Origin: Thermodesulfovibrionales bacterium
GTDB lineage: Bacteria; Nitrospirota; Thermodesulfovibrionia; Thermodesulfovibrionales; SM23-35
NCBI GenBank assembly: GCA_031082155.1
Contig: JAVHLL010000005.1
Location: 1 to 46,013 of the forward strand
Direction of reading: 5' to 3'
Length of the DNA stretch: 46,013 nt
Shown: positions 41,985 through 46,013 of the stretch, piece by piece
Layout: each line of letters opens with the position of its first letter
How positions within the stretch are numbered: position 1 is the stretch's first letter
Notes under the pieces: generated by a model
Told to the model about the DNA's origin: nothing
Seen by the model: the letters and a program-made list of their open reading frames with translations, nothing else
Databases searched by the model: none
Made by a program: the position numbers and the translations under genes

Positions 41985-42019
41985 AACTCCCCCTTGTACT
42001 GTTTTGAGCATTCAGGTGC

Positions 42020-42178
42020 TCAGTGAATTTTTTCCTCTGCTCCGGAGACCGGTATTCCATGGATATGCCTTCTCATCTCTTCGATTACATTGTCACCCTC
42101 CAGGGGGCAATACGTTGTACAGAGACGAGGGCATGAAAGGAATTCAAACCAATTTTTAAACCCCTTGCATGGTTCCAT
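42020..42178 (-). CDS. Small Cys-rich protein (tentative)
   Basis: A frame of 52 codons just upstream of nrdJ, starting at an ATG preceded by AAAAGGGA. It encodes MEPCKGFKNWFEFLSCPRL then CTTYCPLEG, with C4, C16, C20 and C24 spaced as a possible metal site. The rest (NVIEEMRRHIHGIPVSG) is a helix and a tail. A longer form from 42253 has no ribosome-binding site. I recognise no family, and it may be spurious. The position, directly before nrdJ on the same strand, argues for coexpression. Confidence 0.4.
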   Translation of the reverse strand: MEPCKGFKNWFEFLSCPRLCTTYCPLEGDNVIEEMRRHIHGIPVSGAEEKIH

Positions 42179-42352
42179 CAAAAAATTCCCTTTTGCATAG
42201 GCGCCATTATCAATAGATTGTGTTTTATAATAATATCCTGAACATTTAACCACAATATATTGTGTATGTCAAGAAGAAAAGCGGAAAAGTTTTAACCTAT
42301 TGATTTAATTGGTTTATTGTGGTGAAATCTGTGTTGAGAACTGGTGGAGAAT

Positions 42353-43780
42353 TTACCTGATGATTTCGGCGGTAAAACGATAAAGTTCTGCATCCTGCCA
42401 GGCGCCTTTAGGAAGGCCGGCCTTGACGCAGAGCTGGTCAAGGAAAGTCTCCCTGTCCCATCCATATTCCGTGGCAACCTGAGGGAGTAACAGGCCTCTC
42501 TGGATACCTTTTCGAATGAAAAGGCCGTGTCTGCCAACCTGAATGTCTTTTACGTCTCGTAACGGGCTCAAGGGGGAAAGGATCGATATCTCGACCTCGA
42601 TATCCTTTATCTCTTCTTGTGTCAATGGAGGAAATCTGGGATCGCTTGAAGATGCGGCGATGGCATTCTTTATAACCGACTCATAAAGGGGCATAACCGC
42701 CTGAATGTTCCCTATGCAGCCCCTGAGTGACCCGTTCTTCTTGATAGTCACAAATACGGCGCCGTCTGCCCTGAGCTTGGGATTCGATATCTCTTTGTCC
42801 GGTGTTTTTCCGTTTGTTACGTGCTCAGCAATAGCGTTCTTTGCGAGAGAGAGGAGTTCCTTTTTTTCAACTTCTGTGTAGGGGCTTCTGAACAGACCGA
42901 GAGAGGCATACCCCACCACTTTATCCTTTTCGCCCGTTACATCGCCTGAATTTGCATAACGGAATAGCACTCCTTGTGTTGCTCCCAGTCTCTTCGCAGC
43001 TTCCATTGTAATGATGACAGCGAACGCGCCGCACATTTCCGCCTCTCCGTTCTGAAGGAGTTGGCCGGCCTGAATGGTTGAAAGTCTCTCGACTGCTGAT
43101 ATGATTTTGCTGTCCATCCCGATTGCCTTGTGGTAGTCGTGATAATGAGAAAGGTCTGTGCTGGCTACAATCAGGGTTTTTTCATCAAATGTGTCCGATA
43201 TTCTTGATATGAGATGATCGAATGTCTTTTGTGTGGGAGTGCCGATAAGGATGGGGATTATCATGAAGTCCTTCAGAACGGTCTGGAGAAACGGCAGCTG
43301 GACCTCGATTGAGTGTTCTCTCTCAAACGCTTCGGGAAGATACTTTACCTCTGCAGTTTCGTTCAGGAAAGACTGCGCGAGCGGTTCGTTGATCCTGACT
43401 TCACCAAACGGGGACTTGAACCTCCCTTTTGTATATACGGAAGCACCCTTGAAGGCTGAACGATGGCTGACGCCTATTAAAATTACATTCTTTACCTCAT
43501 GGCCCTGAATCTGCCTGTATCCATAGGCAGCAACCTGGCCTGAATACACATATCCTGCGTGGGGCGAGATCAGAGCGATTATTTTCCCTTCACCCTTACC
43601 CTGCGGCGAGTTCCCGATGAACCCGTTTACCATTTCCCCGAGGGCTTTCTTGTCGGAAGGGTAGAATTGTCCGGCGACTGAGGGTTCTTTGACCTGCTCC
43701 GCGCAACCGGTGGTAAGGGGGGTCACAATAAGAGTGACAAGCAGGAATACAAATATTCTTGTCGTCTTCAGTGTGCTCAA
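42353..43780 (-). CDS. AmmeMemoRadiSam system fusion: MEMO1-like (B) and AMMECR1-like (A), lipoprotein
   Basis: A 475-residue protein beginning at a TTG that overlaps the stop of the upstream 44-codon gene. A hydrophobic leader ends in LTTGC (Cys26), a lipobox. Residues about 33-300 are MEMO1-like, with H74 (SPHAGYVYSG), H106 (GVSHRSAF), H212 (TDLSHYHDY) and C250 (MCGAFAV). These match the four metal/catalytic positions of human MEMO1. Residues about 305-475 are AMMECR1-like, with LRGCIGN (352-358) and LLPQVATEYGWDRETFLDQLC. The third component, AmrS, is encoded upstream. The process is unknown in bacteria; the lipobox would place this fusion in the envelope. Confidence 0.93.
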   Translation of the reverse strand: MSTLKTTRIFVFLLVTLIVTPLTTGCAEQVKEPSVAGQFYPSDKKALGEMVNGFIGNSPQGKGEGKIIALISPHAGYVYSGQVAAYGYRQIQGHEVKNVILIGVSHRSAFKGASVYTKGRFKSPFGEVRINEPLAQSFLNETAEVKYLPEAFEREHSIEVQLPFLQTVLKDFMIIPILIGTPTQKTFDHLISRISDTFDEKTLIVASTDLSHYHDYHKAIGMDSKIISAVERLSTIQAGQLLQNGEAEMCGAFAVIITMEAAKRLGATQGVLFRYANSGDVTGEKDKVVGYASLGLFRSPYTEVEKKELLSLAKNAIAEHVTNGKTPDKEISNPKLRADGAVFVTIKKNGSLRGCIGNIQAVMPLYESVIKNAIAASSSDPRFPPLTQEEIKDIEVEISILSPLSPLRDVKDIQVGRHGLFIRKGIQRGLLLPQVATEYGWDRETFLDQLCVKAGLPKGAWQDAELYRFTAEIIR

Positions 43781-43911
43781 TCCAGTCTTCTCCAGAACAT
43801 AGCCTCTTTGAGTTTCCTTTCTTTCTTCACCTCAGCCTTGACCTTCCTGCTGAAAAGGCTGAAGAAAGTTCCCAGACAGAAAAATTTTAAAAAAATTCTT
43901 CGTGTCATCAT
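43777..43911 (-). CDS. 44-residue twin-arginine-like leader peptide
   Basis: This short gene starts at ATG 43911 (or 43908), six bases after GGAGG. The product opens MMTRRIFLKFFCLGTFFSLF, a twin-arginine-type n-region and hydrophobic core. It continues FSRKVKAEVKKERKLKEAMFWRRLD before a stop that overlaps the TTG of the MEMO1-AMMECR1 gene. The EAMFWRRL end resembles the first residues of AmrS enzymes, which often carry twin-arginine leaders. It may be a detached or decayed AmrS N-terminus, or a genuine small membrane peptide. A consensus motif would have TRRxFLK, as here. Confidence 0.6.
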   Translation of the reverse strand: MMTRRIFLKFFCLGTFFSLFSRKVKAEVKKERKLKEAMFWRRLD

Positions 43912-43944
43912 ACAGAACCTCCAATCATCATACAGAACCTCCAA
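43905..43944. repeat. Perfect 20-bp tandem duplication of a ribosome-binding site and start
   Basis: TCATCATACAGAACCTCCAA occurs twice without interruption. On the minus strand each unit carries TTGGAGG, a six-base spacer and ATGATGA. The outer copy starts a seven-codon frame (MMIGGSV); the inner copy drives the 44-codon gene. It could act as a translational buffer or be a recent slippage. Confidence 0.75.
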
Positions 43945-43976
43945 GCGTAACTATAAGAGATTTCATACAATCAATC

Positions 43977-45023
43977 TCAACTCCATACTCCCGGAACAGG
44001 AGTGCTGCAATATGTGCACCTGCTGCCGTTCAGGAGATTCTGTTTCACAAAATACCCGATCCGTTCGATCAGCAGTTTTCTGCACTTCGGACAGAAGGTG
44101 CTTTCTGCTTCATGCCTGATATTGCCGATGTATACAAACTTCAGACCTGCTTCAAGTGCAGTATCCCTCGCCGCGGTGAGTGTCCCGACAGGTGTTGGCG
44201 GGAGATTCGTCAGTTTGTAATGCGGGTGAAACCGTGAGAAATGAATCGGAACATCCGGCCCAAGGTTCTTGACGACCCAGCCGCACATCTCCTTAACCAT
44301 TTTCATGTTGTCATTGAGCGTCGGTATCACGAGGTTGGTTATCTCGATCCAAACGCTTTCTTTCTTCAGTAATACGAGAGAATCGAGAACAGGCTTGAGC
44401 CTCCCGCCGCATACCCTTTCGTAGAAATCTTCCGAGAATGCCTTTAGGTCTATGTCCGCAGCATCCAAATATCTGCATAGTGTTTTCAGAGGTTTTTCCC
44501 TGATATATCCACAGGAGTGCATGGTGTTCCTCAACTTCTTCTCCCTTGCGATGATCGCAGTATCATACATATATTCATAGAAAACCGTAGGTTCTGTATA
44601 CGTATAGGTCACCGATCTGCATTGAGAGCGGATTGCGTTGCTCACGACTTTCTCAGGAGGCAGGTCATAGGTATCCGTATCCTCCGGGTTTGCCTGAGAT
44701 ATCTGCCAGTTCTGGCAGAACTTGCAACTGAGGACGCAACCGGCAGTGGCTATCGAAAAAGCGGTGGTTCCGGGCAGGAAATGGAAGAACGGTTTCTTCT
44801 CTATCGGATCGACATGGACGGCGCAGGGTTTCCCGTATACGAGGCTGTAAAGCCTGCCGTTTTTGTTCATCCTGGCCCTGCACCTGCTCCGCTGGCCTTC
44901 CTCCATGACACATCCGTTCGGGCAGAGTTCACATTGGACTGTCTTGGGCATAGTATAGTATAGTATTTCTACTCTGCATACAGCCAGCCTCTGTGAAAAA
45001 GCTGAACCTGTCCGGTTTACCAT
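43977..45023 (-). CDS. amrS: AmmeMemoRadiSam system radical SAM enzyme
   Basis: A protein of about 348 residues of the AmrS family. It has an N-terminal Cys cluster (CELCPNGC, C31/C34/C38 plus C48), the radical SAM core CVLSCKFCQN (C96, C100, C103), TYTEPTVFYEY, DIDLKAFS and GRLKPVLDSL. Further segments are FSRFHPHY and a C-terminal CPKC...CTYC pair for possible auxiliary clusters. An ATG at 44951 would start right before the first Cys. The segment EILYYT just upstream also matches the family, so the longer start is kept. No signal peptide is seen. MEMO1-AMMECR1 and the twin-arginine peptide follow on the same strand. Confidence 0.92.
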   Translation of the reverse strand: MVNRTGSAFSQRLAVCRVEILYYTMPKTVQCELCPNGCVMEEGQRSRCRARMNKNGRLYSLVYGKPCAVHVDPIEKKPFFHFLPGTTAFSIATAGCVLSCKFCQNWQISQANPEDTDTYDLPPEKVVSNAIRSQCRSVTYTYTEPTVFYEYMYDTAIIAREKKLRNTMHSCGYIREKPLKTLCRYLDAADIDLKAFSEDFYERVCGGRLKPVLDSLVLLKKESVWIEITNLVIPTLNDNMKMVKEMCGWVVKNLGPDVPIHFSRFHPHYKLTNLPPTPVGTLTAARDTALEAGLKFVYIGNIRHEAESTFCPKCRKLLIERIGYFVKQNLLNGSRCTYCSTPVPGVWS

Positions 45024-45099
45024 GAAAAGCCGACGTCTTGCCGAATGTTCCGGTGCAGCCTGAAGAAAGCATATCCCAATGAAACGGGAATCCTGTTCA

Positions 45100-45115
45100 T
45101 GTGACCTGTATCACA
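45100..45115 (+). promoter_or_regulatory. CRP/FNR-family operator, TGTGA-N6-TCACA
   Basis: TGTGACCTGTATCACA is an exact match to the CRP consensus half-sites with the correct 6-base spacer, and the palindrome extends one more base on each side (A...T). It lies between amrS (-) and the secreted-protein gene (+), about 77 bases from the amrS start and 210 from the other. It could regulate either. Confidence 0.7.
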
Positions 45116-45119
45116 TATT

Positions 45120-45325
45120 TTCTCTCCCATGAAGGGTATGCTGTACACGACTGTACCGATCAGGACAAGGAAAGGAGGTGGCAAGGAAGTGGGAGGACCC
45201 GAACCTGATATCGGGAAGGAGGTGTAGAACCCACCTGCCCATATGGGCGCCATGGTTGGTGGGGGAGCCAGTGGCGCAACCAGCCAACTTACGTTCGCAA
45301 ACAGAAACAGTAAGGAGGCTACGCA
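45120..45325 (+). other. Structured leader region with two tiny reading frames
   Basis: No recognised riboswitch is matched. Visible structures are the hairpin AGGTG-TAGAACC-CACCT (about 45221-45237), the perfect palindrome GCCCATATGGGC, and inverted GGTTG/CAACC arms. Short frames begin at about 45129 (MKGMLYTTVPIRTRKGG..., 32 codons) and 45241 (MGAMVGGGASGATSQ..., 28 codons, stop overlapping the next ATG). Both could be chance. This is the only stretch of about 300 bases near the right end without a clear gene. Confidence 0.45.
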
Positions 45326-46013
45326 ATGAAAAAGACGCTTAAGATTACATTTTCTCTACTTGCCGTTCTGGTTTTTATGGCCGCGACGATCCCATGCAGT
45401 GCAGAAAAAAATAAGTACGGAATGCAGGCTCCTCAGGAAATAGGGGACACCATTTACGGATGTTATAAAAAGACAAACGGACAACTGCGTATCGTAAATG
45501 GTCCTGAAGATTGCAACCCTTCAGAATTGCCGGTTTCATGGAGCAATACAGAGGGAGCAGGAGGGGGAGGTTTAACGAATTCTTATGTTATAACCTGCCA
45601 GAATGTGACGAGTTGTTCATGTGATCCTTCTTCTGCAGGCATGGTATTGAGTGGATATGCAGAATGTCCGGCAGGCGCCGTCCTGGTGAGTACGGGAACC
45701 CCGATAGATGATGCGGATAATGGGTTTCAGGCGAACTGTATGTATTTAGACGGTACTTATGTAGCTCCGGCTTATATTGCTATACGATGTATATCGCTTT
45801 CCATTGAAAAGAACTGCAATGATCTGATTGACGACGATGGAGATGGTGCAGTGGATTGCGACGACGCAGACTGCGCAAATGATCCAGCGTGCCAGCCTCT
45901 ACCCGTAGAGAACTGCAATGATTTGGTTGACAACGATGGAGATGGTGCAGTGGATTGTGACGACACGGACTGCGCGAATGATCCGGCGTGCCAGCCTGTA
46001 CCTGTAGAGAACT
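45326..46013 (+). CDS. Secreted protein with Cys/Asp-rich 33-residue repeats (3' truncated by window edge)
   Basis: Starts at an ATG with AAGGAGG. A Sec signal peptide (MKKTLKITFSLLAVLVFMAATIPCSA) precedes a domain rich in Cys and aromatic residues (about 27-160, GCYKKTNGQLRIVNGPEDC...). From residue 162 there are tandem 33-residue repeats. Two are complete, and a third is entered before the window ends. Each repeat reads NCNDLxDxDGDGAVDCDD, then DCANDPACQ, with DxDxDG calcium-loop spacing. Similar Asn-Cys-Asp repeats occur in secreted proteins of Myxococcota and related groups. It is probably a surface or extracellular protein. Function is unknown and the C-terminus is not seen. Confidence 0.8.
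   Translation, partial: MKKTLKITFSLLAVLVFMAATIPCSAEKNKYGMQAPQEIGDTIYGCYKKTNGQLRIVNGPEDCNPSELPVSWSNTEGAGGGGLTNSYVITCQNVTSCSCDPSSAGMVLSGYAECPAGAVLVSTGTPIDDADNGFQANCMYLDGTYVAPAYIAIRCISLSIEKNCNDLIDDDGDGAVDCDDADCANDPACQPLPVENCNDLVDNDGDGAVDCDDTDCANDPACQPVPVEN
45809..46013 (+). repeat. Tandem 99-bp repeats encoding the Cys/Asp units
   Basis: Units at 45809-45907 and 45908-46006 are 99 bp each and about nine-tenths identical; most differences are silent or conservative. A third unit begins at 46007 and is cut by the edge. Such arrays expand and contract easily, so copy number may differ among strains. Confidence 0.85.

Follow-up and report, generated by a model that had tools for sequence, protein, structure and literature searches.

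Gene organization of the locus

The window, by which we mean the whole stretch of 46,013 nucleotides analysed, holds on its minus strand a very short frame that lies between amrS (upstream) and amrBA (downstream). The features, read along that strand, are the following.

43977..44951, minus strand: amrS, split type, a radical SAM gene whose product starts MPKTVQCELCP and is without the EAxFYxxL segment (TIGR04337, 385 bits)
43905..43944, plus strand: 20-base perfect tandem duplication over the ribosome-binding site and ATGATG of the microprotein gene, read from the window sequence alone
43777-43911, minus strand: gene of a stand-alone Tat-leader microprotein, putative N-terminal module of AmrS; a separate frame kept in relatives, with signs of purifying selection
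43885..43905, minus strand: twin-arginine motif T-R-R-I-F-L-K, conserved in relatives
43780..43809, minus strand: C-terminal motif KEAMFWRRLD, homologous by profile match to the N-terminus of full-length AmrS
42353..43780, minus strand: amrBA, encoding an AmrB (MEMO1-like)-AmrA (AMMECR1-like) fusion whose N-terminus (LTTGC) is of lipoprotein type (TIGR04336 and TIGR04335, PF01875/PF01871)

AmrS (TIGR04337), AmrB (TIGR04336), and AmrA (TIGR04335) all scored above the curated cut-offs in the window, and Radical_SAM was the only Pfam model over its cut-off on AmrS. The longest amrS frame opens at 45023. The window AmrS matches TIGR04337 only from profile position 11, which is also the point at which its split-clade relatives begin. 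In many relatives, a TATAAT-like sequence was observed a few bases before the amrS ATG (L106, L108, L120, L134, L152; window about 44952-44966, minus strand), so close to it that leaderless amrS transcripts are suggested. Further along, at 45326-46012 on the plus strand, the window holds the start of a secreted, acidic protein with calcium-site-like repeats such as NCNDLIDDDGDGAVDCDDADC and no Pfam match. An Rfam search for structured RNA returned no match in 42000-46013.

The short frame at 43777-43911 has the TRRIFLK motif, hydrophobic core, and EAMFWRRL end that a preliminary description of this DNA had reported. It encodes 44 amino acids from the first ATG (43911), or 43 from the second, adjacent ATG (43908), and stops at a TGA (43779-43777). 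The product is M(M)TRRIFLKFFCLGTFFSLFSRKVKAEVKKERKLKEAMFWRRLD, with the second M as a possible start and MMTRRIFLKFFCLGTFFSLFSRKVKAEVKKERKLKEAMFWRRLD as the full frame; TRRIFLK is followed by an uncharged hydrophobic run and then by the C-terminal EAMFWRRLD. A ribosome-binding-like GGAGG is found 9-12 bases 5' of the ATGs. The TGA overlaps the TTG start of amrBA, and the TGG-AGA/AGG codons of the KEAMFWRRLD motif are likely also the purine-rich ribosome-binding stretch of amrBA. It was also observed that the 20-base duplication generates a short upstream mini-frame. Neither Pfam nor NCBIfam contains a model for the microprotein, and small genes of this kind, having no such model, are easily overlooked.

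Conservation and selection of the microprotein

A profile search found stand-alone microproteins of 38-53 residues directly before amrBA in 38 of the 176 genomes of the order, with five further carriers elsewhere in the class or phylum (G178, G225, G240, G270, and G048). A search of 296 phylum genomes with the 44-residue sequence as query returned comparable short frames in the same place; the unrelated sequence in relatives that would have counted against the preliminary description was not seen. A peptide-pattern scan of a separate genome collection gave 11 microprotein loci, all titled Nitrospirota or Thermodesulfovibrionales, which are partly genomes already counted, in a scan that covered the space outside Nitrospirota with two peptide patterns only.

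Among the 38 distinct microproteins, the arginine pair is invariant, phenylalanine stands at +2 after it in 35, leucine follows in 27, and threonine precedes it in 23. The leader motif is thus of the S/T-R-R-x-F-L-K type with invariant RR that defines a Tat motif. It is followed by an uncharged run of 11-17 residues with a Kyte-Doolittle mean of 1.5-2.7 (about 2), and then by K or R in most rows. Judged from these sequences, such a run is short for a stable membrane helix and usual for a Tat signal. An AxA-like signal-peptidase I site was found in 22 of the 38. At the other end of the protein, the alanine of A-M-F-W is invariant (38/38) with all four alanine codons in use, while the phenylalanine is present in 36 and the tryptophan in 37. 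The phenylalanine codon of A-M-F-W is TTC in 35 of 36 cases, compared with 58 TTC to 99 TTT at other microprotein phenylalanine positions (Fisher p 4e-12).

We found that pN was below pS in all 703 microprotein pairs, with pN/pS of 0.22-0.42 in the six closest pairs. By this measure, the microprotein is under purifying selection. A chance open reading frame was ruled out by the conservation in relatives together with this selection.

Selection on the protein also bears on whether the frame merely couples or regulates translation of amrBA, its product being irrelevant. Such a role would fit the TGA/TTG overlap, as well as the TGGAGGAGG-type "WRR" codons serving as the amrBA ribosome-binding site. 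The ribosome-binding role of the C-terminal codons may mean that part of the local nucleotide conservation there is not at the protein level. That role leaves the alanine, the two arginines, and the likeness to AmrS unexplained. Amino-acid selection extends across the frame, including RR and the alanine with its four codons. Since the tail also resembles AmrS N-termini and the frame depends on split AmrS even when the two are unlinked (see below), we regard a purely regulatory leader frame as highly improbable.

The microprotein tail and the missing AmrS segment

In AmrS proteins outside the split clade, a short conserved segment precedes the first CxxCxxxC motif; examples are MKEAMFYERLEDGKVRC (G132:C45), MQEARFYEKLGDNKVRC (the second AmrS of the window genome, C34), and MREAMFWEALPDRRVIC (G006). 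In these non-split proteins, the segment reads (K/R)EA(M/L/R)FYE(K/R)L.. or, in an equivalent form, ARYWH..LxDGR, and comes ahead of the MxKVQCELCP point. The AmrS of the microprotein genomes begins at MxKVQCELCP, without exactly that segment, in 38 of 38 genomes of the order and 29 of 29 in the phylum sample, a count in which the G308 start is placed by alignment alone and the G299 N-terminus is masked. In most split AmrS genes there is a stop codon a few codons upstream, and therefore the short N-terminus is not a start-site error.

The tail of the microprotein, KEAMFWRRLD, matches the ordinary AmrS N-terminus, KEAMFYERLED... A profile of 34 full-length AmrS N-termini gave a median of 12.2 bits on the 38 microproteins, 32 of which reached 8 bits, while 6 of 9500 shuffled controls reached 8 bits and none reached 12.2. 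By this comparison, the likeness that the preliminary description had noted between the tail and AmrS N-termini is beyond chance, and by homology the tail is the missing front of AmrS.

This homology weighs on a reading of the locus as a RiPP-like pair, in which the microprotein would be a precursor peptide modified at its C-terminus by AmrS and exported via Tat. A short conserved peptide does adjoin a radical SAM gene, and its C-terminal residues are conserved. That conserved tail is homologous to AmrS itself, however, and in ordinary AmrS it belongs to the enzyme chain; in addition, Pfam shows no peptide-recognition domain in AmrS, and amrS is outside the cluster in four genomes. We consider the pair very unlikely to be of this kind. 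The RiPP precursor was rejected as a main idea because the tail belongs to AmrS elsewhere.

The preliminary description had further considered that a Tat leader may have been split from AmrS and had suggested a search of relatives for AmrS with an intact leader. Six genomes of the same order were found to encode such a fused Tat-AmrS (G350, G284, G304, G301, G154, and G174), for example MLTRRTFLKYC...EEARFYKRLPDGNINCLLCFRGC in one chain, with those of G154 and G174 more distant than the other four. In G174, the gene of a membrane-anchored AmrBA directly follows the fused gene, and no microprotein is encoded between the two. G284 and G301 have a fused Tat-AmrS in addition to the split pair. Together with a partner AmrS that is without the segment and the near-perfect co-occurrence reported below, these proteins support such a split. 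Split AmrS forms a single clade (support 100/100) that is joined to the main Tat-fused and anchored AmrS with moderate support (90/71); on this phylogeny, it is plausible that one fission of a fused ancestor gave rise to it. Searches for similar proteins elsewhere found no full-length AmrS on viral contigs and six AmrS-like places on plasmids, two of which were inspected and showed no sign of a leader in their annotation. No solved structure of an AmrS relative was found, and the AlphaFold model of split AmrS (mean pLDDT 47) is too poor for use.

Several neighbouring observations were made among these relatives. The AmrS of G268:C41 (L207) has an N-terminal hydrophobic anchor of non-Tat type, without RR (MKKSVLILMIMIMLPVIVVTAE...LARYWQPLNDNRVLCQLCP), which is another sign of exported or anchored AmrS. 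Adjoining the fused Tat-AmrS of G301, a second Tat-type leader (SRRQFIKACF...) was seen on a protein with CRLCPRQCG (L205:6299-7001), which may itself be another exported radical SAM protein. In many relatives, the gene upstream of split amrS encodes a membrane protein with a spermidine-synthase domain (PF01564); in the window genome, it lies just past the window, near amrS (contig C55, 46541-48685, minus strand; L221:3316-5460, reverse). A similar protein is found beside fused Tat-AmrS and anchored AmrS. Such membrane proteins, other instances of which are at L116:553-2880, L205:3955-6249, and L207, may be part of the exported system.

The same relatives speak to the idea that the frame is a scar, the remnant of a second, exported AmrS lost from this genome by deletion. 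The tail does look like a cut-off AmrS N-terminus, and fused Tat-AmrS exists. Yet dozens of species retain a frame of about this length, with purifying selection acting on it, and the way in which its stop meets the amrBA start is that of an organised boundary between genes. We therefore set aside this part of the preliminary description, giving it next to no chance of being correct.

Co-occurrence of the microprotein and split AmrS

Within the order, 38 genomes carry the microprotein and the same 38 carry split AmrS; in the phylum sample, both are found in the identical 29 of 296 genomes. These counts were taken over related genomes and are not independent trials. In four genomes (G032, G111, G132, and G308), amrS was found on a different contig from the one that bears the microprotein gene and amrBA; linkage is therefore not the whole of the association. 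The lone exception is G101, in which a split-type AmrS fragment lies at a contig edge and neither a microprotein nor a fused AmrBA was detected.

AmrBA and the predicted site of the system

Across the 37 loci inspected, the microprotein gene adjoins amrBA in every case, and a cysteine ends the AmrBA signal sequence in 36. AmrBA is thus lipoprotein-like at nearly all loci and should lie outside the cytoplasm. TatC is encoded in the window genome (222 bits, C35:62841-63527). Two genomes, G124 (L054/L156) and G186 (L055/L157), have a lipoprotein AmrBA without a microprotein and without split AmrS, indicating that exported AmrBA can exist alone. It was also observed that the window genome has a full-length AmrS (G000:C34:130343-131347) and a separate AmrB (G000:C7:38990-39781), and it appears to hold a cytosolic set besides the exported one.

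The constant neighbourhood with amrBA raises the alternative that only the microprotein is exported and that, at the AmrB/AmrA interface, its KEAMFWRR tail binds periplasmic AmrBA as a substitute for the AmrS N-terminus, with AmrS itself remaining in the cytoplasm. Consistent with this, the gene always adjoins amrBA (37 loci) and not always amrS (the four genomes named above), and the microprotein stop and amrBA start overlap in 27 of 48 rows, ten of which are duplicate records, suggesting coupled translation. This alternative gives no reason why AmrS should lose exactly this segment only in microprotein genomes, though, and it leaves the fused Tat-AmrS forms unexplained; we consider it improbable.

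The main rival is a membrane tether, in which the microprotein would remain in the inner membrane and hold or complete AmrS on the side that faces the cytoplasm, the enzyme itself not passing through Tat. The homology and co-occurrence also fit a tether. The cleavage site is not conserved, radical SAM chemistry is normally cytoplasmic with SAM supply outside the cytoplasm problematic, and the anchored AmrS relative of G268 has its hydrophobic segment without RR. Against this, a simple anchor has no need of an invariant RR with F at +2, as K should serve; the uncharged stretch is merely 11-17 residues; and the AmrBA lipoprotein signal puts the partner outside. On balance, we think a tether unlikely, while giving it more weight than any of the other alternatives.

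Proposed export of AmrS in trans

The explanation that we favour and consider probable is that the microprotein is an N-terminal module that became detached from an exported AmrS and that completes AmrS in trans and takes it via Tat to the periplasmic side, where AmrBA is. From the homology, the absence of the segment from the partner AmrS, the fused counterparts, the co-occurrence, and the selection, all seen in the sequences, we infer binding of the two chains, Tat export, and activity in the periplasm. The amrS of this lineage would have lost its N-terminal segment, which would persist as a microprotein in its own right, with translation immediately ahead of that of the lipoprotein AmrBA. 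Once the iron-sulphur clusters are in, the C-terminal segment of the microprotein would bind truncated AmrS in the cytoplasm, and the bound KEAMFWRR tail would restore the N-terminal segment, completing the fold in trans. Because AmrS binds iron-sulphur clusters, its export would need the folded state, as Tat provides. The twin-arginine leader would then carry the pair through the Tat translocase as hitchhiker export, and AmrS would end up on the same, periplasmic side as the anchored AmrBA. Docking of AmrS on the peptide, a possibility raised in the preliminary description, is the best-supported putative mechanism.

Several observations sit less well with export of AmrS in trans. The AxA-like cleavage site is present in 22 of 38 microproteins only, and a radical SAM enzyme working in the periplasm would depend on a supply of SAM and of low-potential electrons on that side of the membrane. 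The co-occurrence was counted over related genomes and has the contig-edge fragment of G101 as an exception, and G124 and G186 have lipoprotein AmrBA without either the microprotein or split AmrS. The fuller proposal, that a 43-residue stand-alone Tat leader supplies the segment that AmrS is missing and exports the folded, cluster-loaded enzyme in trans and that the whole AmmeMemoRadiSam system (lipoprotein AmrBA and AmrS) works outside the cytoplasm, is in our judgement evenly poised between true and false.

If export in trans is correct, "export tag" and "enzyme" would be genetically separate, offering a simple test of the Tat folding check. The locus further suggests that the AmmeMemoRadiSam system, the AmrB half of which is the bacterial relative of human MEMO1, exists in a second version that is exported; with this comes the question whether radical SAM chemistry can take place in the periplasm.

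Comparison with known systems

The locus resembles the AmmeMemoRadiSam system in that AmrS, AmrB, and AmrA are all present. It differs from the usual form in that AmrB and AmrA make up one lipoprotein-like fusion, AmrS is without its N-terminal segment, and a Tat microprotein has that segment. With the fused Tat-AmrS proteins (G350:C17, G284:C64, G301:C28, and G174:C14), it shares an RRxFLK-type leader, EARFYK..L or a distant equivalent, and the AmrS core; those proteins are one chain, whereas here there are two genes, in the order amrS, leader, amrBA. Our literature search, which covered few subscription papers, turned up no work that treats MEMO1, AMMECR1, and radical SAM together and none that describes a microprotein associated with AmrS.

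Tat signals borne by a helper are already known. In hydrogenases and formate dehydrogenases, a partner subunit bears the signal (PMC10924467). The gamma subunit of FAD-glucose dehydrogenase is small, bears a Tat signal, and is needed for folding and secretion of the iron-sulphur catalytic subunit (PMC6719666); it is helical with its own structure, while the microprotein would be a detached piece of its enzyme. In the Streptomyces tyrosinase pair MelC1/MelC2, an enzyme with no signal is activated and exported by hitchhiking on a small Tat-signal protein (PMC2758597). The present locus is similar in having a separate small Tat-signal protein, an AmrS without its own signal, and consistent co-occurrence. 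MelC1 is a copper-delivery helper and no piece of the enzyme, whereas the tail of the 43-residue leader corresponds by homology to AmrS's own missing N-terminus. It is unusual for an enzyme to have its export tag on so small a protein apart from it, and in the same literature we found no earlier report of a helper composed only of a leader and a detached piece of its cargo. The known cases of Tat hitchhiking that we found use whole folded subunits as helpers; if export in trans is correct, the microprotein would be the minimal case.
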